Shown one piece after another: positions 768-11,443 of a stretch of 21,227 bases of DNA. Each line of letters begins with the position of its first letter. Within the stretch, counting starts at the first letter, position 1. Position numbers and translations under genes: made by a program. This stretch comes from a virus. Location: IMG/VR virus record IMGVR_UViG_3300021963_000770, positions 1-21,227 of that record; one strand, given 5' to 3'. The notes beneath the pieces are model-generated. The model ran no database searches. It was not told where the DNA came from and was given only the letters and a program-made list of their open reading frames with translations.

Positions 768-1826
768 ATGCGAAAGATACTGCTTTTCTCTGACATACAC
801 ATCCATCCCCACAAGAGGAGTCAGCAGAGGCTGGACGACTGCCTCCGGGCTCTGCAGTGGGTTTTTGATGTGGCCAAAGACGAGTCGATAAAAGAAATAC
901 TTTTTGGCGGCGACCTGTTTCACGACCGCCAGAAGATCGAGGTCTATACCTACCAGCGAGCGTTTGAGGTCATCTATGGAAACATGTTGAGTGGGAGCTT
1001 TTCGCTCACGCTCCTGCTGGGAAACCATGACCTTTGGTTCAATGACAGGACAAACGTCAGCAGCGTGACGCCCCTTTCTGCAATACCAGGAGTCCGTGTG
1101 GTTGGTGAACCCGCAAGGATAAACATCTGCGGCTCCAACTGGGATTTCGTCCCCTTCACGCACAACCCGATAGAGACCTTGGAGCAATTGAGGGCCATGC
1201 CCGGCGATCCAGAGTACGCTCTTGGCCACATCGCCTTGGACGGCGCGATACTCCATGGCAGCCAGCAGTCCGATGTGGCCATCGAGCATGACGGGGACAT
1301 GGTGAGGGTGAGCCCTTCTATCTTCGGGCACTACAGGCACACATACCTGGGTCATTATCACGCCGAGCAGCGTGTCAACCTAAAAGTTGAGTACATCGGA
1401 TCGCCCTTGGAGCTCAGCTTCGGGGAGGCCTTCCAAGAGAAGCACCTTATAATCCACGACTGCGAGAGCGGGGAGCGCCGCTACGTGGTCAACAACTTCA
1501 GCCCGAAGCACCTGATCGTGAAGGCGGAGGATCGATCCAAATACGATTTGGAGGGCAACTTCGTGCAGATCAAGGTGGACGACATGAGTGCCACAGACCT
1601 GCTGACCATGAAGAGAGAACTCCAGACGGAGTCCAATGCCGCCTCTGTGGAAATAAAGCAGCAAAAAAGGGCCATAGAGGAACATGTAATTCGTGATGCC
1701 AAAGCTATCTTAAATCAAGGCGATATGCTGGCACGCTACGCCAACGAGGTGGGCCATGATGGTCTTGACCTAGAGCAGCTTCTTGCGGTGGGCAAGAAAA
1801 TCTGCCAGCAGACGGAGCAAGATTGA
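768..1826 (+). CDS. 47: Recombination endonuclease subunit gp47 (SbcD/Mre11-like)
   Basis: A 352-residue metallophosphoesterase nuclease, the partner of gp46. In T4 the gp46-gp47 complex resects DNA ends for recombination-dependent replication. The family's metal-binding motifs appear in order: D9-x-H11 in LLFSDIHIHPH, GGDLFHDR at 47-54 and GNHD at 85-88. They are followed by LHGSQ and, near the end of the domain, GHYH. Length matches T4 gp47 (about 340). I chose the ATG at 768 because the motif-bearing N-terminus begins there and GGAGG (756-760) sits 7 bases upstream; the frame stays open further upstream but that part has no motif. The stop overlaps the TTG start of the next gene (TTGA). 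Confidence 0.93.
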   Translation: MRKILLFSDIHIHPHKRSQQRLDDCLRALQWVFDVAKDESIKEILFGGDLFHDRQKIEVYTYQRAFEVIYGNMLSGSFSLTLLLGNHDLWFNDRTNVSSVTPLSAIPGVRVVGEPARINICGSNWDFVPFTHNPIETLEQLRAMPGDPEYALGHIALDGAILHGSQQSDVAIEHDGDMVRVSPSIFGHYRHTYLGHYHAEQRVNLKVEYIGSPLELSFGEAFQEKHLIIHDCESGERRYVVNNFSPKHLIVKAEDRSKYDLEGNFVQIKVDDMSATDLLTMKRELQTESNAASVEIKQQKRAIEEHVIRDAKAILNQGDMLARYANEVGHDGLDLEQLLAVGKKICQQTEQD

Positions 1827-2533
1827 ATTTCGTAGTCACGGGCCTAAACGAGAAGTTCTGGAACCCTTGGGGCCTGTCGTGGGCGCTTTCTCTGCGCAAG
1901 ATCGCTCAGACCAAAGCGGATGTGGTGGTTCTGAACTATGGGCTCTCGCTTCGCTCCAAGAACATCCTTGAGTCCCTTGACATTTCCGTGCTGGACGGGG
2001 CAAGCAACGGGACTTTGAGGCAGTCTTCCTTGCTCCAGTCGGCGAAAAGCGCAGTCAAGGGCGGCGACAAAGTTGTTTATTTCGACGCAGACATTTGGTT
2101 CCAAAACAACTTCGATGAAATTTTCGATGAGATAGAAGACTCTAGACTCAGGCTATCAAGCAACTTCAATCAGGGATTCATGGCTGGTAACTCCAGAGCT
2201 TGGTCCAAGTACACCGACATACACGCGATATGCCAAGGCACCAAGGAGAGCCGTGTCTATGAGGCGCTGGTCAACTTCTTTCAAGGCTTTTTCGATACCA
2301 CCAACCACAGGTACAACTGTCCCAACGTGCATCAACTCGTCGATGTCGATGGCGCGCTGACCCACATGGGGATGCCGGTCGCTGGGATACACTTCACGGG
2401 ACCGCTTAAAACTCTTGGGCTGAAGAGAAACGTCACTTTCCAAGAACGACACGCCGACCTGTTCGGGGAGTACATCAACTCATATCGAACAAGGCACATC
2501 TACCTCGGCAAGCCCAGCCACCTGAAAAGTTAA
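1823..2533 (+). CDS. GT8-like glycosyltransferase
   Basis: A 236-residue putative GT-A-fold sugar transferase. VVYFDADIWFQ places a DxD motif at D88-A-D90 (nucleotide-sugar/metal binding). FNQGFMAGNS (115-124) resembles the acceptor-side FNaG motif. HFTGPLK at 190-196 fits the HxxGxxK motif of family GT8. Donor and acceptor are unknown; phage DNA bases, capsid proteins or host glycans are all possible. The start is TTG at 1823, overlapping the gp47 stop, with GGAG about 5 bases upstream; there is no ATG nearby. It sits between gene 47 and gene 46, where T4 has only the small gene 47.1, so translation is coupled to the recombination nuclease. Confidence 0.72.
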   Translation: MNFVVTGLNEKFWNPWGLSWALSLRKIAQTKADVVVLNYGLSLRSKNILESLDISVLDGASNGTLRQSSLLQSAKSAVKGGDKVVYFDADIWFQNNFDEIFDEIEDSRLRLSSNFNQGFMAGNSRAWSKYTDIHAICQGTKESRVYEALVNFFQGFFDTTNHRYNCPNVHQLVDVDGALTHMGMPVAGIHFTGPLKTLGLKRNVTFQERHADLFGEYINSYRTRHIYLGKPSHLKS

Positions 2534-2601
2534 GAGCAACCCTGCCTTGCAAAAGATTCGCGTGGTGGATACTTTCTGTTTACCACACGGCACGGTGACA
2601 C

Positions 2602-4650
2602 ATGCGCAAATTGAACATCAAATATGCTGCTGCATATAATTTCCTCCCCTTCGGACCCGATGGAATAAAAATATCATTTCAGAACCATGGCAACGTGGTG
2701 CTGATAAGGGGCGAGAACCGTGACGCCAAGCAGCTAGAGGAGAGCCTGGCATCCGACGAGATGAGGGTGAGCAGCAACGGGACTGGGAAAAGCAGCATAC
2801 AAGAGATCGTCGTATACGGGCTATACGGCAAGACCGTCAAGAGGCCGGAGAAGGTCGGCGCAAACGATGTTGTGCACAATAAGGTCGGGAAAGACGCCAA
2901 GGTGGAGATACACTTCGACGACTACAGGGTTGTGAGGACGCGCAAGGACGGCGGCAACGACAAGAAAAACACTCTGCGTCTTTGGGAGAGCCCCGAGGGC
3001 AGGTGGGACAAGGACACGGAGGTGACCCTCGGCACGATGGCCCTGACCCAGAAGAGGATAGAGGACATCATAGGCCTTTCGTACGACGCATTTATCAACA
3101 TCTGCATCTTCACCGACGATCAGCGCGCCTGCTTTTTGGAATGCGACAACAGGCAGAAGAAAGAGATAGTCGAGAACATGCTGTCGCTAGGCACCTACAG
3201 GCAATGGCACGAAGGCGCTCGGGCTCTAAGGAAGGAGCTGAAGGGTCAAATAGACATCAAGGCCAAGGAGTACATGATACTCGAGAACAACGTGTCCGAA
3301 GCCACCAAAAGGCTGGAGGCATCCAAGCAAAAGGTTAGGTCTTGGTACGAGCTGAAGGTCAAGGAGGTGGAGGATGTAGGCAACAAGATAGCCACCGTAG
3401 AGCAGATGATGGAGAAGACAGGAGGCGACCAGAGCAAGGCGTTGAAGGAATATGAGGACGCACAAGCTAGGATCAAGGAAATCGAGGGAGCTCTGCCATC
3501 CCTAGACGGGAAGCGGGCCGACATCGACTCAAAGATCAAACTTGCAAACGAAAAGGAAACAAAAGTCAAGGCGGAGGCCCAAAAGACCTCCGAGGCCCTG
3601 CACGACCTTGCCAGGAAAATCAAGGGCCTGAAGGAGGACAAGGACAAGAAAAAGTCCGACATAGATGCCGTTGCGAGCATGGCTCCAGGAACCACGTGCG
3701 ACAAGTGCATGGGCGAGATCATGGAGCAGAATCTTGAGGGTTACGCTGCGAAGGTTCGCAAAGAAATAGCCGAAATAGACAACGAGATAAACGTACTTGC
3801 AACAGCGTCTGGACGGCTATCTGAAGAGGCCACTAAAACCAAGGAGATGCTGGACAAGATCAGGAAATTCATTCAGCAGCAATCCACGGAAATGGCCAAA
3901 GTTGATTCGGATATCAGGTCGCTTAACTCCGAGATGGCGACCTGTAGCAAGGTCAAGGAGCCGAAGGTGGATCAACACCTTGCGGTGCTCTCTGGCAAGC
4001 TGGACGAGCTGCGCAAGCTCTTGGACTCAAAGAAGAAGGAGCTCGACTTCGGCTCCCCATTCGCAGAGATGGTCAAGTCCGGCGAGGATGAGCTGGTCAA
4101 AGACAGCCAGCTTGCCGCAGATAAAAAGCAGGAGGTCGCTGAGCTGGAGGCTCAACTGCCATACGTCGACTACTGGATCACGGGCTTCGGCGATCAAGGA
4201 ATACGCAAGTGGGTCGTTGACGGCGTCGTTCCCGAGCTCAACAGCAGAATCAACTACTGGTTGCAATTCCTAATTGACAACAGGATCACCCTCCAGTTCG
4301 ACAACGAACTGAACGAAACCATCCAGCGGAACCCTGCCGACGGCGACCCCTACGTGTACCACGCGATGTCAACGGGCCAGCGAAGAAGGCTTAATCTTGC
4401 CGTCAGCCAGTCGTTTGCCCATGTCATGTCAATGAGCTCCGGAAGCCTCCCATCCCTCGTGTTCCTCGACGAGGTAACCACGAATGTCGATCCCGCCGGG
4501 GTTTTGGGCATTTTCAACATGATCATGGAGATAGCGCAGGACAAGCAGGTTTTCATTACCACCCACGACCACGACCTCCTGCGAATGCTGGGTGGTTGCG
4601 ACACAATCAGCTTGGTTCACGAAAACGGCTACACGAAGCTTGTCGACTGA
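2602..4650 (+). CDS. 46: Recombination endonuclease subunit gp46 (SbcC/Rad50-like ATPase)
   Basis: A 682-residue SMC-like ATPase, the partner of gp47 in DNA end resection and recombination. The Walker A is N59-GTGKSS-65. Long charged coiled coils on both sides of the middle carry a zinc hook C366-DK-C369. The ABC signature STGQRRRLNLA begins at residue 590. Walker B is LVFLDE, with D623-E624. The H-loop is H655 in FITTHDHD. Length is above T4 gp46 (560), mostly in the coiled coil. About 18 residues (roughly 40-57) separate GEN from the SSNGTGKSS loop, where classic Rad50 has a continuous GxNxxGKS. The start ATG at 2602 has GGTGA 4 bases upstream. A 68-base gap separates it from the glycosyltransferase gene. 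Confidence 0.95.
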   Translation: MRKLNIKYAAAYNFLPFGPDGIKISFQNHGNVVLIRGENRDAKQLEESLASDEMRVSSNGTGKSSIQEIVVYGLYGKTVKRPEKVGANDVVHNKVGKDAKVEIHFDDYRVVRTRKDGGNDKKNTLRLWESPEGRWDKDTEVTLGTMALTQKRIEDIIGLSYDAFINICIFTDDQRACFLECDNRQKKEIVENMLSLGTYRQWHEGARALRKELKGQIDIKAKEYMILENNVSEATKRLEASKQKVRSWYELKVKEVEDVGNKIATVEQMMEKTGGDQSKALKEYEDAQARIKEIEGALPSLDGKRADIDSKIKLANEKETKVKAEAQKTSEALHDLARKIKGLKEDKDKKKSDIDAVASMAPGTTCDKCMGEIMEQNLEGYAAKVRKEIAEIDNEINVLATASGRLSEEATKTKEMLDKIRKFIQQQSTEMAKVDSDIRSLNSEMATCSKVKEPKVDQHLAVLSGKLDELRKLLDSKKKELDFGSPFAEMVKSGEDELVKDSQLAADKKQEVAELEAQLPYVDYWITGFGDQGIRKWVVDGVVPELNSRINYWLQFLIDNRITLQFDNELNETIQRNPADGDPYVYHAMSTGQRRRLNLAVSQSFAHVMSMSSGSLPSLVFLDEVTTNVDPAGVLGIFNMIMEIAQDKQVFITTHDHDLLRMLGGCDTISLVHENGYTKLVD

Positions 4651-4715
4651 TCAAAAAAAAACGAACCTTGGTGATTACATAACCTTCCCCACTTGGGGCA
4701 GAAGCAGGAGGAATC

Positions 4716-5690
4716 ATGAGCATTTTCGACAAAAGGGTCGCATTCAAACCCTTCGAATACCCGGAAGTAACAGAGTACAAGAACGCGATCACCCACAGCT
4801 ATTGGCTAGTGAGCGAGTGGAACTTTATAAGCGACATACACGATTTCAACGTGAAGCTTGACCCGATTGAGAGGAACGCCCTCAAGAACGCCATGCTCGC
4901 AATCTCGCAGATCGAGATTTCGGTGAAAAAGTTCTGGACGAGACTTGGCGACCGTTTCCCCAAGGCAGAGTTCGATCAGGTCGGCGTGACGTTCGGGGAA
5001 AGCGAGGTCAGGCATTCTGACGCCTATTCGCACCTTTTGGAGGTGCTGGGCATGAACAAGGAGTTCGACCAGCTCATGGAGAACCCTGTTATCCAGGGCC
5101 GTGTCGATTATCTCACGAAATATCTCAAGGGTGCATCCGACAACAGTAACGAGAACTACACTCTCGCCTTGACCCTGTTCAGCATATTCATCGAGAACGT
5201 GAGCCTTTTTAGCCAGTTCGTGATCATCAAGTCTTTCAACAAGTACAAGAACTGCCTTAAGGACATCGACAACGTCGTCCAGGCTACCCAGAAAGAAGAG
5301 CAGATACATGCGCTCCTTGGGGTCTACCTCATCAAGCAGATACACAAAGAGTTCCCTGGGTGGTTCAACGAGGACTTCTACGAAAAGCTCTATCGCGCCT
5401 GCAAGAAGGCGTACGAGGCAGAGGAAAAGATCATAGATTGGATTTTCGAGGCGGGAGAGCTTTCGTTCATGGCCAAGGCCGTGGTAAAGGAGTATGTCAA
5501 AAAGCGGTTCAACGACAGCCTAGAGATGATAGGCGGCAAACCCGTTTTCGATGTCGACAAAACCAAGGTGGCAGAGCTTAAGTGGTTCGAGGACGAGATT
5601 CATGCTGAAGTGAACACGGATTTCTTCCACAAGAAGCCCGTGACGTACTCCAAGAAGACCAAGCCCATCAAGGCCGACGACCTGTTTTAG
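4716..5690 (+). CDS. nrdB: Class I ribonucleotide reductase, small (radical) subunit
   Basis: A 324-residue R2 subunit that houses the metal/tyrosyl radical cofactor used by the large subunit to make deoxyribonucleotides. Expected ligands are visible: E67 (in SQIEIS), E97-x-x-H100 (in ESEVRHSDAY), E160 (in FIENVS) and E195-x-x-H198 (in KEEQIHALLG). The radical tyrosine Y104 stands four residues after H100, as in E. coli (H118/Y122). The first ligand is Glu, whereas E. coli has Asp. The C-terminal tail KADDLF would dock to the large subunit. The ATG has AGGAGG about 5 bases upstream. It is followed by the large subunit gene after a short gap, forming an operon with small before large. Confidence 0.95.
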   Translation: MSIFDKRVAFKPFEYPEVTEYKNAITHSYWLVSEWNFISDIHDFNVKLDPIERNALKNAMLAISQIEISVKKFWTRLGDRFPKAEFDQVGVTFGESEVRHSDAYSHLLEVLGMNKEFDQLMENPVIQGRVDYLTKYLKGASDNSNENYTLALTLFSIFIENVSLFSQFVIIKSFNKYKNCLKDIDNVVQATQKEEQIHALLGVYLIKQIHKEFPGWFNEDFYEKLYRACKKAYEAEEKIIDWIFEAGELSFMAKAVVKEYVKKRFNDSLEMIGGKPVFDVDKTKVAELKWFEDEIHAEVNTDFFHKKPVTYSKKTKPIKADDLF

Positions 5691-5719
5691 AATTTGAAGA
5701 AACCGAAATGGAGAATGAC

Positions 5720-7363
5720 ATGAGCGAATACAGGTGGCTGACAGACCTCTCCCAGCAGTTCTTGGAGAGGGACTACCTCGTCGACGGCCAGACGGTGGAC
5801 CAGCGCGTTGATGAGATTTGTGGCTGCGCAGAGAGGCTCCTAGCCAAGCCTGGGTTCGCTGCGAGGTTCAAGGAGTACTTCAAGAAGGGCTGGTACAGCT
5901 TCAGCACGCCCATCTGGACTAACTTCGGAAACGACCGGGGGTTGCCCATAAGCTGCTTCGGCAGCTACATCGAGGACTGCATGGAATCCATCGCCTTCAC
6001 TTGGGCGGAGGTGGCCATGATGACCAAGCATGGCGGGGGCACAAGCGGGTTCTTCGGCAATCTGCGTGAGCGTGGCGCCAAGATACGGAAGAACGGCGAG
6101 AGCTCAGGGGCAGTCCACTTCATGCAGGCCTTCGACAACCTCATCAACGTTGTCAGCCAGGGCAAGACGAGGCGTGGAAACTTTGCGGCATACCTCAACG
6201 TCGACCACCCCGACATCATGGAGTTCCTGCAGATAAGGAACGAGGGCTTCCCCATTCAGGATCTGTCCTACGGGGTGTGCGTGCCCGATCGGTGGATGCA
6301 GGAAATGATCGACGGGGACGGCGAGAAGAGGAAGGTCTGGGCCAAGATACTTGAGAGCCGCTCCAACCTAGGCTTCCCCTACATAGCCTTCATCGACAAT
6401 GCCAACAACGGCGCCCCCGACTGTTACAAAGACAAGGGCGTAAAGATCACGCACTCCAACCTCTGCTCGGAGATATTCCTTCCCGACGGGCCGGACGAGT
6501 CGTTCGTTTGCGACCTGAGCAGCATGAACATCCTCCACTACGATGAGTGGAAGGACACCGATGCTGTCGAGCTGATGGTCTACTTCCTAGACGCCGTGAT
6601 GACGGAGTTCATCGAGAAGGCGTCGAAGGTCCAGTTCCTTGAGAGAACCGTCAAGTTCGCCGAGAGGCATCGCGCCCTCGGCATCGGGTGGCTCGGCTGG
6701 CACAGCTATCTACAGAGCAAGATGATCGCCTGGGAGAGCATGGAGGCGAAGCTAATCAACACCCAAGTCGCCAAGTCGATACGGGACGCAGCCTACGCAG
6801 CGTCCACCAAGATGGCCTTAGAATACGGGGAGCCCGACGCTTGCAAGGGTTTCGGGAGGCGCAACACGACGCTGCTAGCCATCGCGCCAACAAAGTCTTC
6901 CGCATTCATCCTCGGGCAGGTTTCGGAGGGCATCGAGCCCCACCGGACCAACTACTACATCAAGGACTTGCAGAAGGGCAAGTTCACGGTGAAGAACCAT
7001 GAGCTTGAGGCCCTCCTGAAGCAGAAGGGCAAGGATGAGGAGTCGGTCTGGCAGAGCATCCTCATGAACGGGGGCAGCGTCCAGCATCTGGACTTCCTGT
7101 CCGACCACGAAAAGGACGTCTTCAAAACATTTGCCGAGATAAGCCAAAAGGAAATCATCATACAGGCCGCCGCAAGGCAGAAATTCATCGACCAGGGACA
7201 GTCGCTGAACCTCATGGTCCACCCCTCCATACCAACCAAAGACGTGAACGCGCTCATAATCGAGGCTTGGAAGCTGGGGGTCAAGAGCCTCTACTACCAG
7301 ATATCGGTCAACGCCGCCCAGAATTTCTCCAGAAACATTCTGGCCTGCAAGAGCTGCGAGTAG
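5720..7363 (+). CDS. nrdA: Class I ribonucleotide reductase, large (catalytic) subunit
   Basis: Catalytic R1 subunit, 547 residues from this start. With M1 at 5720, the active-site residues are: N247-L-C249-S-E251 (N/C/E equivalent to E. coli N437, C439, E441); redox pair C79 (LPISCF) and C264 (FVCDLS); radical-transfer tyrosine pair in SLYYQIS; C-terminal shuttle cysteines C543 and C546 (ACKSCE). It is about 200 residues shorter than E. coli NrdA, and the loss is largely N-terminal: the first redox Cys is residue 79 rather than 225. The regulatory ATP-cone is therefore absent. An ATG at 5708 in the same frame is possible, but GGAG at 5710-5713 is well spaced for 5720. A strong terminator follows. 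Confidence 0.95.
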   Translation: MSEYRWLTDLSQQFLERDYLVDGQTVDQRVDEICGCAERLLAKPGFAARFKEYFKKGWYSFSTPIWTNFGNDRGLPISCFGSYIEDCMESIAFTWAEVAMMTKHGGGTSGFFGNLRERGAKIRKNGESSGAVHFMQAFDNLINVVSQGKTRRGNFAAYLNVDHPDIMEFLQIRNEGFPIQDLSYGVCVPDRWMQEMIDGDGEKRKVWAKILESRSNLGFPYIAFIDNANNGAPDCYKDKGVKITHSNLCSEIFLPDGPDESFVCDLSSMNILHYDEWKDTDAVELMVYFLDAVMTEFIEKASKVQFLERTVKFAERHRALGIGWLGWHSYLQSKMIAWESMEAKLINTQVAKSIRDAAYAASTKMALEYGEPDACKGFGRRNTTLLAIAPTKSSAFILGQVSEGIEPHRTNYYIKDLQKGKFTVKNHELEALLKQKGKDEESVWQSILMNGGSVQHLDFLSDHEKDVFKTFAEISQKEIIIQAAARQKFIDQGQSLNLMVHPSIPTKDVNALIIEAWKLGVKSLYYQISVNAAQNFSRNILACKSCE

Positions 7364-7501: not shown

Positions 7502-9160
7502 ATGTCCTGCAAATACATCATCGTGGCCGGCGGCGTTTTCAGCGGGACCGGGAAGGGAGTTTCTGCGGCGAGCGTGGGTCTTCTGCTGAAACTGCGTGGC
7601 CACAAGATTGACCTTATAAAGTTCGACCCATACCTCAACAGGAACGCCGGCATCCTCGCGCCCAGCCAGCATGGCGAGTGCTTCCTTTGCGACGATGGCA
7701 CGGAAACCGACCTCGATCTCGGCCACTACGAGCGGATCGCCGGCATCAACATGTCCAAGGCCAATATCTGCACATCTGGGACGCTCTACAAGGAGCTCGA
7801 CGAGGAGCAAGAGGCAGGCAAGTACCTAGGCCAGACCATACAGGTCGTGCCCCACCTGACAAACAAGATCATCGACAGGCTGGTCCAGCTTGGTCGCGAC
7901 AAGGACGTGGTCGTGGTTGAAATAGGGGGCACAATCGGCGACAGCGAAAGCGACTCGTTCTTTGAGGCGGTGCGGCAGTTCAAGCAGATGCTTAAGGACG
8001 ATGTCCTCGTGACGATGGTCGCCCCCATCATCTGGGTTCCGACGATCAACGAGCTGAAGACCAAGCCGCTACAGAACGCAGTAAAGGACCTCCAGAGCTA
8101 CGGCCTCCAGCCGGACATTATCTTCTGCAGGACGGATCGCCAGATTCCCGAGAAGATCATGAGCAAGATATCCCAAATGACTAATGTGAAGCGCGAGTGC
8201 GTTTTCGAGGCTCCGGACGTCAAGAGCATCTACCAAGTGCCTTTGGAGTTCTACGACAGGCACGTTGACGACCTCTTCGTCGATCTTTTCAGGCTGGGCA
8301 GGAGCTCGTGCCGTGTACATAAGTACAGAGAGGTCGTTGAAAAATATGTCGCCAACCACATGGACACGGTGGAGATTGGCATTTTCGGCAAGTACGAGAA
8401 CTGCGACGAGGCTTACATCAGCCTGAAGGAAGCGCTAACGCATGCCGGAGTTGCAAACGACGTCAGGGTCGTCATCAGGTGGATAAAGGCCGAGGAGTTG
8501 GAGAAGTACAAGGACAACCGAGGGCTTCACAAGTATTTTGAGGGGCTGCACGGAGTCATAGTGCCGGGCGGATTCGATGCGAGGGGCGTGGAGGGCAAGA
8601 TCAAGGCCATCCAGTACTGCAGGGAGAAGCGGCTGCCCTTCCTAGGGATATGCCTCGGCCTTCAGATGGCTGTAGTGGAGTTCGCGCGAAACGTCTGCGG
8701 CTTCCAAGGCGCCAACAGCCTCGAGTTCGATAAGGGAACACAGCATCCGGTCGTGCATTTCGTCCACGGGCAGGAGGAACTCATCAAGAAGTCCGCCAAC
8801 ATGAGGCTGGGCGCATACGAGTGCGAGCTCGCAAAAGACAGCCTTGCACATGAGCTATACAACGCCAAGCATGTGTCAGAGAGGCACAGGCACAGGTACG
8901 AGGTGAACTCCGAATATTTGGAGTCCTATGCAAAAAAGGGATTAAAGGTATCTGGGCTGAGCACAGAAAGCGGCAGACCAGGGCAGGCGGGATTGGTGGA
9001 AATTATGGAGCTGGACCGCTCTGTCCACCCATACTTTATCGGCACCCAGGCCCACCCGGAGTTCAGGTCTAGGCTGATGTCGGCGAGTCCTCTTTTCAGG
9101 GGACTCATCACGGCCGCCAAGAACATGCGTGACCAGAGCCAAAGTGGGCAAGAAGCATAA
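7502..9160 (+). CDS. pyrG: CTP synthase
   Basis: A full-length 552-residue CTP synthase (E. coli 545), which aminates UTP to CTP using ATP and glutamine. The N-terminal amidoligase domain has the P-loop GGVFSGTGKG (10-19), QHGE at 56-59, and ETDLDLGHYER around 68-78. VVVVEIGGTIGDSES follows, with its Mg-binding Glu. The C-terminal class I glutaminase has C384 in FLGICLGLQ and H518/E520 in GTQAHPEF, completing the triad. Some usually near-invariant parts are changed: LNRNAGILAP stands where most enzymes have NVDPGTMSP. It is therefore a divergent member with its catalytic residues intact. GGAG lies about 8 bases before the ATG. It would feed cytidine nucleotides to the upstream ribonucleotide reductase. 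Confidence 0.95.
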   Translation: MSCKYIIVAGGVFSGTGKGVSAASVGLLLKLRGHKIDLIKFDPYLNRNAGILAPSQHGECFLCDDGTETDLDLGHYERIAGINMSKANICTSGTLYKELDEEQEAGKYLGQTIQVVPHLTNKIIDRLVQLGRDKDVVVVEIGGTIGDSESDSFFEAVRQFKQMLKDDVLVTMVAPIIWVPTINELKTKPLQNAVKDLQSYGLQPDIIFCRTDRQIPEKIMSKISQMTNVKRECVFEAPDVKSIYQVPLEFYDRHVDDLFVDLFRLGRSSCRVHKYREVVEKYVANHMDTVEIGIFGKYENCDEAYISLKEALTHAGVANDVRVVIRWIKAEELEKYKDNRGLHKYFEGLHGVIVPGGFDARGVEGKIKAIQYCREKRLPFLGICLGLQMAVVEFARNVCGFQGANSLEFDKGTQHPVVHFVHGQEELIKKSANMRLGAYECELAKDSLAHELYNAKHVSERHRHRYEVNSEYLESYAKKGLKVSGLSTESGRPGQAGLVEIMELDRSVHPYFIGTQAHPEFRSRLMSASPLFRGLITAAKNMRDQSQSGQEA

Positions 9161-9196: not shown

Positions 9197-9775
9197 ATGC
9201 GATTCAAAGAGTTTCTCATCAACGAGCAGCAGGCCTATCTCGGGCAAAAGGTCGGGGACATACTCACGGCGGTACAAGAGCTCATGACCGATGCGCAGGG
9301 CATGGGCACTCGCGACCTCGTAAGATATACCCAGCAGGTTGTCAATCAGATCAGGCCGATTCTCCACAGTAGCTGGCCACGCGAGGAGAGGAAGTTCCTG
9401 CTCACTCTCCAGAAGGTCGCAGTTTCTCTCTCCAAGGCGATTGAGGACAAGGGCGACCTCCCGAGCAAGCTTGCAGGCAACGCCGAGGTTCTCCAAAAGC
9501 TAGTCGCAGACCTTGGTGTGCCGATCAACAAACTCAGCACCACGGACTCAGCGCCGCCCACACCAGACTCCAAAGGGACGGACATCTCTGCCCAAGGCGA
9601 AGCAAAAGCCGAAGCCCCGCCTCCAGCGGAGGGCCAGAAGACAGCGCCCGACGCGCCTCCTGGTGCGGCCGCTCCGCAAGAGGAGCTTCCGCAGGCCGGA
9701 TCGCCCCTGCCACCAGACCAGGGGCTTTACGCCCCTAGCCTAGGCGGAAGCTCTGGGCCGCTGGACGCGTTCTAA
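9197..9775 (+). CDS. Probable head-internal/virion protein with capsid-targeting-like N-terminus
   Basis: 192 residues. The N-terminus MRFKEFLINE aligns without gaps to the capsid-targeting sequence of T4 IPIII (MKTYQEFIAE). I8-N9-E10 matches the (I/L)xE cleavage site of the T4 prohead protease, leaving QQAY as the mature end. Residues 11-110 are predicted helical from composition (VGDILTAVQELMTDAQ, LTLQKVAVSLSKAIED). The last 75 residues are Pro/Ala/Glu/Gln-rich and probably disordered, ending PLDAF. The function is not otherwise recognisable. It lies between CTP synthase and a glutamine amidotransferase but has its own late-type promoter candidate. Its TAA stop is in the same frame as the next gene and overlaps that gene's Shine-Dalgarno. 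Confidence 0.75.
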   Translation: MRFKEFLINEQQAYLGQKVGDILTAVQELMTDAQGMGTRDLVRYTQQVVNQIRPILHSSWPREERKFLLTLQKVAVSLSKAIEDKGDLPSKLAGNAEVLQKLVADLGVPINKLSTTDSAPPTPDSKGTDISAQGEAKAEAPPPAEGQKTAPDAPPGAAAPQEELPQAGSPLPPDQGLYAPSLGGSSGPLDAF

Positions 9776-9783
9776 AGGAGGTG
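9774..9783 (+). promoter_or_regulatory. Extended Shine-Dalgarno for a non-canonical AUC start
   Basis: AAAGGAGGTG is a ten-base perfect complement of the 16S rRNA 3' end, the longest in the window. AGGAGG (9776-9781) is 6 bases from the ATC codon at 9788, the normal spacing. This fixes the start of the amidotransferase, because the upstream in-frame codons are TAA AGG AGG TGC CCC and contain no ATG, GTG or TTG. Confidence 0.85.
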
Positions 9784-9787
9784 CCCC

Positions 9788-10870
9788 ATCTGTGGCATAG
9801 CCGGGTTCATAGGGGCCTCCACGAGGCCCGAAGTAAGTTTTGCGATACTGACCAAGCTTCTTGAGAAAAGCGAGTCCAGAGGGATCGACGCTAGCGGCTA
9901 CTGGGCAGTTTGCGCAGAAGGAATCGTTCACTACCACAAGGAGTCGACCAGGGCGAGCCAGTTCGTCCGGAAGCCTATTTGGAGCAAGCTCAGGGAAACT
10001 AATTTCGATCTTTTCATAGCTCATGCGAGGGGTGCGTCCAAGGGGGTGGGTGGACCCGAGTCCAACATCAACAACCACCCCTTCACATCGGCAGACCGAA
10101 CTCTAGGCATGGTCCACAACGGAAGGATCGACGATTGCGAGTACTGCGTACTCAAGAACAAGTACGAGGTTCGATCAGGGTGCGACTCCGAGATAATACT
10201 TCGCATCGTGGAAGCTTCGGGGCAGGACAGGCTCAAGGGGATTTCGGAGGTCTTCAGCCTGATCAACCATGGACACATGGCCGTTGCGATGGGCCAGCGG
10301 ACATCTCATACGGACAGGGACCTGTGGCTTTTCAGAAACGAGCACAGGCCTCTATGGGTCGTCGATGTGCGCGACAGCCTCGGTCAAATCATGTTTGTTT
10401 CGGAGCCGTCCATCTGGGACGACGCCCTATCGCAGTGCGACAAGGCGAAAGGGGTAGTCAGAGCAGCGAAGGTCATAGAGTTGCCCGTGGAGCAGATTTG
10501 GCACTTCAGGCTGGCAGATGGCATTCGGCAGTCTCTTGCGCCCCAGCGCTACGCTGTCGAAAAAGGCCCAGCCATGGCATGGGAGGACGATGGATCGCGC
10601 CATGCAATTCAGACTCATGGGGTTGAGTCAAAGGTGCAGACGGTTCTGGGGGCCGACGACAGATTAGACGCTGGCAAGGTGGCGGGCGGGATTCGTCTCG
10701 ACGTGCTGAATGCCTCATGCGACACTCTCATAGATTTGGTCAACAACGTGAGGCTTTTCGCCGAGCAGAAGGCAGTCGAGGAGTCGATGGCCAAGGCCGA
10801 CTTCCAGAGGCTTTTACGCTCTCTGGAAGACAAGAGAACGGAGCTTGAAGAGATACTTGGCTTGATCTGA
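9788..10870 (+). CDS. Class II glutamine amidotransferase, apparent AUC start
   Basis: 360 residues. The glutaminase domain (about 1-200) is of the N-terminal-nucleophile type. The first codon is ATC, followed by C2-GIAGFIGA, where C2 would be the catalytic Cys exposed after removal of the initiator residue. Further family features are RGIDASG (31-37), R81 in AHARGAS, NNHPF (95-99), HNG (110-112) and D133 in SGCDSE. The C-terminal half has no recognised synthase or isomerase domain and ends in a helical, probably coiled-coil segment. The ammonia acceptor is unknown. An internal ATG at 10046 would drop the nucleophile and is rejected as the start. The upstream in-frame codons lack any usual start, so the choice rests on C2 and the exact Shine-Dalgarno. 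A sequencing error (ATG read as ATC) is possible. Confidence 0.85.
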   Translation: MCGIAGFIGASTRPEVSFAILTKLLEKSESRGIDASGYWAVCAEGIVHYHKESTRASQFVRKPIWSKLRETNFDLFIAHARGASKGVGGPESNINNHPFTSADRTLGMVHNGRIDDCEYCVLKNKYEVRSGCDSEIILRIVEASGQDRLKGISEVFSLINHGHMAVAMGQRTSHTDRDLWLFRNEHRPLWVVDVRDSLGQIMFVSEPSIWDDALSQCDKAKGVVRAAKVIELPVEQIWHFRLADGIRQSLAPQRYAVEKGPAMAWEDDGSRHAIQTHGVESKVQTVLGADDRLDAGKVAGGIRLDVLNASCDTLIDLVNNVRLFAEQKAVEESMAKADFQRLLRSLEDKRTELEEILGLI

Positions 10871-10888: not shown

Positions 10889-11443
10889 ATGCACCCCTTT
10901 GAAGACTACGACGATTTCGTCAACGAGGATTTGACGCAGAACAAGCCCATCAAGAAGCGCAAGAACGGCAAGCGCAAGGGAAGCCGAACAGAGCTTGACC
11001 TCACCAAGGTCCTCAACGCAAGGTTCGGCACGGGATTCTCTAGGTCAGTAGGCTCCGGAAATCGCTGGGGCCAGGTCAACCACCTGCCGAAACACGCAAG
11101 AGATGTCTTCTCAGGCGACCTTATAGTCCCTGAAGGATTCCGTTTCGCAATTGAGAGCAAGGGCGGCTATGACTCCATAGACGTCAACAGCGTGTTCGTG
11201 CGTGGGAACAGCGAGCTCGACGCTTTTCTCAAGCAGGCATTCGCCGATGGACAGCGGTGCGGCAGAATGCCCATGATGTGCTGGAAGCGCACGCGCAAGC
11301 CATGGCTTGCGTTCGTGCTGACCCAGGACCTTGCGGGTCGCGAGTTCAAGTACTCGATGAAGTATGGGGAATGGACTGCCGTAGCTCTTGAGCACCTTTT
11401 GAAGCTCGAGGACGATTTCTTCATAAGTCCTGGCAATCCATAA
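10889..11443 (+). CDS. PD-(D/E)XK nuclease, Holliday-junction-resolvase-like
   Basis: 184 residues. After a Lys/Arg-rich N-terminus (KKRKNGKRKGSR) the core shows the order expected for PD-(D/E)XK enzymes. This is RTELDLTKVL with an early Glu, a SRSVGSGN loop, DVFSGDLIVPEG with the Asp of the core (about residue 77), and FAIESK with E-x-K (about 89-91). The E / R-x-x-GSG / D / E-x-K layout resembles archaeal Hjc-type resolvases. A role in cutting branched DNA from gp46/47-driven recombination is inferred. GGAG lies 5 bases before the ATG. It follows the amidotransferase gene after 18 bases, so is probably in the same transcript. Other nuclease roles, such as host DNA degradation, are not excluded. 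Confidence 0.6.
   Translation: MHPFEDYDDFVNEDLTQNKPIKKRKNGKRKGSRTELDLTKVLNARFGTGFSRSVGSGNRWGQVNHLPKHARDVFSGDLIVPEGFRFAIESKGGYDSIDVNSVFVRGNSELDAFLKQAFADGQRCGRMPMMCWKRTRKPWLAFVLTQDLAGREFKYSMKYGEWTAVALEHLLKLEDDFFISPGNP

Follow-up and report, generated by a model that had tools for sequence, protein, structure and literature searches.

The amidotransferase locus and its start site

The window analyzed here, a single IMG/VR record of 21,227 bases, contains a gene (GAT) whose product, judged by its sequence, is a class II glutamine amidotransferase (GATase_6). The protein matched PF13522 with 37.4 bits (curated cut-off 27) as well as phage PHROGs annotated as L-glutamine-D-fructose-6-phosphate aminotransferase, the latter from residue 1–2 on, and its motifs are intact (Cys2, HARG at 79–82, NNHPF at 95–99, HNGR at 110–113 and CDSE at 132–135), the conserved glutamine-site residues, Arg, Asn-Gly and Asp, being found in HARG 79, HNGR 110 and CDSE 132. 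The N-terminal Cys and the HAR, HNG and DSE motifs are common to the GATase_6/7 class II (Ntn-type) enzymes GlmS, PurF and AsnB; unlike these, the phage protein has no recognised synthase domain, starts at a non-AUG codon and has no close relative in cultured phages. The gene immediately upstream gave no match in Pfam or PHROG, and two genes upstream of GAT, at 7502–9160, lies a phage CTP synthase carrying a class I amidotransferase domain.

Table 1. Features of the GAT locus, in window coordinates
Feature	Position	Strand	Remarks
Upstream gene, 192 aa, MRFKEFL...	9197..9775	+	Orthologs in L004 and L005; stop TAA 9773-9775 overlaps the Shine-Dalgarno
AAGGAGGTGCCCC	between TAA 9773-9775 and ATC 9788-9790	+	Window sequence
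Extended Shine-Dalgarno AAAGGAGGTG	9774..9783	+	6 nt from GGAGG to ATC
Spacer CCCC, 4 nt, GGTG to start codon	9784..9787	+	GGTG-N4/5-AUY spacing kept in relatives
ATC, strongly supported start codon	9788..9790	+	ATT at the same place in sister L067; ATG in L004/L009
TGT, catalytic N-terminal Cys of class II amidotransferase	9791..9793	+	Cys in 59/59 members
Class II glutamine amidotransferase (GATase_6), 360 aa, C-terminal extension	9788..10870	+	Open frame, profile match
Downstream gene, PDDEXK_15 / RusA-like nuclease	10889..11443	+	Syntenic in L004

Read directly from the window, the codons TAA AGG AGG TGC CCC ATC TGT follow each other in frame across 9773–9793, and the first in-frame ATG, GTG or TTG after the TAA is at 10046 (a GTG), 86 codons on and 3′ of both the Cys codon and the HARG motif. 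This agreed with the original prediction, which had proposed the ATC before the Cys codon as the start, had listed the same in-frame codons and had seen no other start. Since there is no canonical start before codon 87 and the motifs are intact, translation must begin at or just before the Cys, and the ATC is the only AUN codon on offer at this conserved N-terminus, as expected of a site of the infC/ccpN/cvfC1 type discussed below. It is thus strongly supported that the ATC is the real initiation codon, and we consider it unlikely that reads would show ATG at this place.

The AAAGGAGGTG element occurs as a single exact copy within the window, and its pairing energy of −15.3 kcal/mol was the strongest among the 23 window genes tested. 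Because isolated phages gave no close relative (matches to the family queries at ≤30% identity), no host was assigned, and the 16S tail of the host may differ from the E. coli type with which AAGGAGGTG forms nine contiguous pairs. The ten-base perfect Shine-Dalgarno (SD) originally claimed thereby stands for nine of its bases, whereas for the tenth, an A, pairing requires a Bacillus-type tail and hence depends on the host. We found no special RNA structure at the start, the folding of 9745–9835 being no different from that of shuffled sequences (z 0.08), and Rfam gave no riboswitch or other known RNA upstream of the gene at eight loci including the window.

Start codons among related phages

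In the collections searched, neither a near-identical second copy of the window nor another contig from this phage was present. L004, a 223-kb phage contig, carries an ortholog with conserved flanks; it is 48% identical, and its start, ATG TGT, overlaps the stop of a gene absent from the window. In L004 (7189–7665) and L005 (10104–10514) the MRFKEFL gene is followed by a gene of ≈130–150 aa with a His/Cys-rich N-terminus, for which there is no counterpart at window positions 9775–9788. The CTP synthase of the window is 76% identical to that of L004, and L005 (LR756511, a 595-kb phage) encodes at 1792–5685 a ribonucleotide reductase large subunit of 1297 aa with two long intein-like insertions that are absent from the window homolog at 5708–7363.

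A profile search gave 34 loci, four of which begin ATT TGT behind AGGTG, and with a pattern for any ATH before Cys some 30 genuine N-termini were recovered, in part from these contigs. When the start codon was instead left free in a pattern run over viral contigs, the starts were ATG in 31, ATT in 20, ATC in 1, GTG in 5 and TTG in 2, together with three stretches judged not to be starts; four of the ATG matches (L087, L098, L110 and L117) belonged to different types of amidotransferase and were removed afterwards. About a third of the related phages accordingly start this gene with AUU or AUC, hereafter AUY. The final non-redundant set of 59 genes contained 28 ATG, 21 ATT, 3 ATC, 5 GTG and 2 TTG starts, but its AUY share (24 of 59) was enriched through the ATH pattern, and the start-blind census gives the fairer rate. 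The comparison with related phages that had been proposed thus showed the codon to recur, and while AUC starts are indeed very rare for genes at large, as had been stated, AUU and AUC are common in this amidotransferase family. Among the 24 AUY members the third base of the start codon was T in 21, C in 3 and A in none, most of these phages being AT-rich.

In 19 of the 24 AUY genes the stretch from the in-frame stop to the AUY contains no ATG, GTG or TTG, an example being L017 with the codons TGA AAT ATT TGT. Near-identical copies, several of them from different metagenomes, never differed in start codon, and the codon agreed across assemblies for L051/L063/L071/L075, L041/L045/L054 and L066/L074. 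An assembly error in the window (C for G), or a gene that has lost its start and is decaying, could be entertained for a single record having no near-identical second copy, but is extremely improbable when 23 further members of the non-redundant set, the sister gene among them, have AUY and the same codons appear in independent assemblies, which excluded sequencing error as a general cause. AUY is furthermore coupled to the GGTG motif (see below), and a dead gene would hardly have kept an intact frame, conserved catalytic residues and the AUY itself across saturated synonymous sites.

We likewise consider it very unlikely that ribosomes enter elsewhere, either by readthrough of the TAA or at the GTG within GGTG followed by a +1 shift, to give a propeptide that is cleaved. 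Propeptides exist in some class II amidotransferases, the upstream TAA of the window is in frame, and most members have a GTG 7 nt before the AUY. Against this, the spacer codons are not conserved, the in-frame stops lie at variable distances, eight members have only a single codon from the stop to the AUY, the 5-nt spacer of L048 moves the GTG to another frame, and L069 has no GGTG. With neither spacing nor frames conserved, both stop readthrough and GTG initiation with frameshifting were rejected; a readthrough fusion had been disfavoured in the original prediction as well.

On the protein tree the AUY label had to change nine times or more, with seven or more of the changes on well-supported branches; being unrooted, the tree does not tell AUG-to-AUY changes from the reverse. 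The window and L067 (ATT) formed a sister pair with support 100/98. At fourfold-degenerate sites AUY relatives were only 21–51% identical, with 29% for the window and L067, and since the sister has AUU despite such saturation of synonymous sites, AUY is maintained rather than decaying. Two AUY clades, of seven and five members, contain no AUG, though AUG is one substitution away. The weak codon is thus conserved within these two clades and in the window pair, with AUG being found in about half of the family.

Coupling to a strong Shine-Dalgarno and restriction to one gene

The AUY codons were tightly associated with the sequence preceding them. GGTG is found 4–5 nt before the start in 23 of the 24 AUY genes and in none of the 28 AUG genes, the distance being 4 nt except in L048, where it is 5 nt; L069, the sole AUY gene without GGTG, has GGAG-N8-ATC. 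AUY genes paired with the 16S tail at a median of −11.4 kcal/mol, AUG genes at −5.8. The long start-proximal SD also lies at a fixed place, with an aligned spacing of 6–7 nt in all AUY genes, while that of ordinary ATG genes in these phages ranges mostly over 3–8 nt. Using phylogenetically independent pairs, SD strength followed the codon in 6–7 of 7 and never went in the opposite direction (median p 0.03). RGGTG-N4/5 precedes only 5 of 250 genes in contig G003. The combination of a weak codon with maximal SD pairing, seen by the original prediction at one locus, hence fits a family-wide pattern. From these sequence comparisons, GGTG, a spacer of 4–5 nt, AUU or AUC and UGY (Cys) probably make up a recurrent initiation site that selection has maintained in a single phage gene family; the finding is both real and larger than first claimed.

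In three whole contigs, G003 (225 kb), G001 (381 kb) and G002 (245 kb), we also looked for genes best started at a non-canonical codon behind a strong SD. In each of them GAT was the only convincing, homology-supported AUY gene, the other low-energy candidates being without homology support and most of them near canonical starts. In 84,980 bacterial and archaeal genomes, the pattern [AG]GGTG-N4-AUH-UGY-GGN-AUH-G[CU]N-GG gave no amidotransferase start. In viral contigs, GAGGTG-N4-AUH-UGY-GGN-AUH gave the amidotransferase family and one further case, L200 (IMGVR_UViG_3300011118_000493, position 6487), a protein of 536 aa with an ATC start behind AAAGGAGGTGTATC and the site AAAGGAGGTG-TATC-ATC-TGY. 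By eye, rather than by profile, L200 was recognised as an amidotransferase fused to a QueC-like domain, and it possibly belongs to a deazaguanine pathway of a phage.

These data bear on whether AUY could have arisen by chance from AUG, with the strong SD merely restoring normal output and no regulation being involved. Such compensated drift agrees with the alternation of AUG and AUY members on the tree, and also with the weak SDs of AUG members, whereby the outputs of both versions may be similar. We nonetheless regard it as rather unlikely, because AUY lasts across saturated divergence in the clades of seven and five, with AUG one mutation off, because no other gene of the same genomes did likewise in the three scanned contigs, and because the same pattern gave nothing comparable for amidotransferase genes in the bacterial and archaeal genomes.

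Another explanation is that the mispaired fMet-tRNA often leaves the AUY, upon which the SD-tethered ribosome restarts at the UGY codon, so that part of the protein is made free of Met. Neither deformylase nor methionine aminopeptidase would then be needed, and IF3, of either host or phage, would set the Met-free share of active enzyme. In a reconstituted E. coli system with AUU, a CAU anticodon and fMet, 31% of the product was full-length at 1.5 µM IF3 and the remainder lacked Met (PMC10158994), in agreement with loss of fMet-tRNA at AUU in vitro and a restart at codon 2 (PMC10158994). Codon 2 of the AUY genes is always Cys, which must become residue 1, and drop-off would account for the site being found in a Cys1-dependent enzyme as well as in L200, a second amidotransferase type, with G001, G002 and G003 having no other convincing AUY gene. 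Bacterial amidotransferases and half of the phage family, however, cope with AUG and removal of Met, mismatched codons gave very little product in absolute terms in vitro (PMC10158994), and a deformylase gene is present in three of the AUY phages. Altogether we find drop-off distinctly improbable.

Initiation factor 3 and the proposed control of enzyme level

Sites of this type are already known from bacteria. In Staphylococcus and Bacillus, conserved non-canonical starts with an extended SD are found in cvfC1 (AUU), ccpN (AUA) and infC (AUA) (PMC13009471), and experiments in S. aureus put the output of AUU and AUA starts behind a long start-proximal SD at about 10% of that from AUG; such starts can make expression condition-dependent (PMC13009471). 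Phage GAT resembles these genes in having a weak AUN start conserved across species with a long start-proximal SD, which in their case cuts initiation about tenfold. They are, however, cellular regulator genes whereas GAT encodes a metabolic enzyme, and GAT uses mostly AUU and some AUC, with no AUA seen, has Cys as codon 2 and switches frequently between AUY and AUG. E. coli infC, with an AUU start and autoregulation by IF3, likewise has a good SD before its AUU (GGAGG-N8-AUU), so that IF3 sensitivity would be expected for GAT too, but the product of infC is IF3 itself, while GAT encodes no translation factor and IF3 is encoded elsewhere in several of the phages. In Streptomyces, the GUC start of sigR is reported to confer IF3-mediated repression (PMC5472188), giving another gene-specific non-canonical start, though with GUC, for a sigma factor and in a bacterium (PMC5472188). 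The use of such a site by a phage amidotransferase was not found described: the literature searched, mostly without subscription papers, gave no description of this site in phages, for this gene or at this frequency, and as far as that literature shows this is the first phage gene family with recurrent, conserved AUU/AUC initiation.

Genes for IF1 and IF3 were already known in huge phages (PMC7162821). IF3 genes with both domains were present in four of five AUY contigs larger than 100 kb vs three of ten large non-AUY contigs, an association that was not significant (Fisher p 0.12) and had only four independent pairs; the link between IF3 and AUY is suggestive, a lead and not a result. The IF3 genes with both domains (L120–L126) came from seven large phage contigs of the family (G001, G002, G003, G005, G017, G018 and G031), six of which have a peptide deformylase gene about 3–9 kb from IF3, a proximity that suggests a translation-start cassette. 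No GGTG-N4-AUY site was seen at the start of the phage IF3 genes, and autoregulation of phage IF3 through an AUY start was hence rejected. The same applied to a special phage initiator tRNA reading AUY: no initiator-like tRNA with a GAU anticodon was found in G001, G002, G003 or the window, with G003 and the window having no tRNA genes, and G001 and G002 having ordinary sets where Met has CAT.

We consider the site to be probably a maintained weak-codon/strong-SD initiation site that provides low, IF3-sensitive synthesis. The sequences themselves show how the site is arranged, that it recurs and outlasts saturated divergence, that it goes with a strong SD and that it is nearly unique within a genome; that expression is low or IF3-sensitive is likely, by analogy with the weak-codon sites of S. 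aureus. Against a need for AUY in particular, weak SDs or stop–start overlaps are found in several AUG members, so that the requirement of the family may be for low output. According to this proposal, pairing of the long start-proximal SD with the 16S tail would hold AUY in the P site, where fMet-tRNA (CAU) would mispair at the third base, and IF3 would reject many of these complexes, giving a low enzyme level that moves with IF3 activity. Met would be removed afterwards, thereby exposing Cys1. In phages with their own IF3, infection itself could shift the enzyme level.

For the annotation of such phages, tools that require ATG, GTG or TTG cut away the catalytic Cys, at a loss of 86 residues in the case of the window, whereby the enzymes look dead. 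Related phages, having the gene with either AUG or AUY, offer a natural experiment on start codon versus SD strength, and IF3, the very factor that judges such codons, is encoded by some of them.
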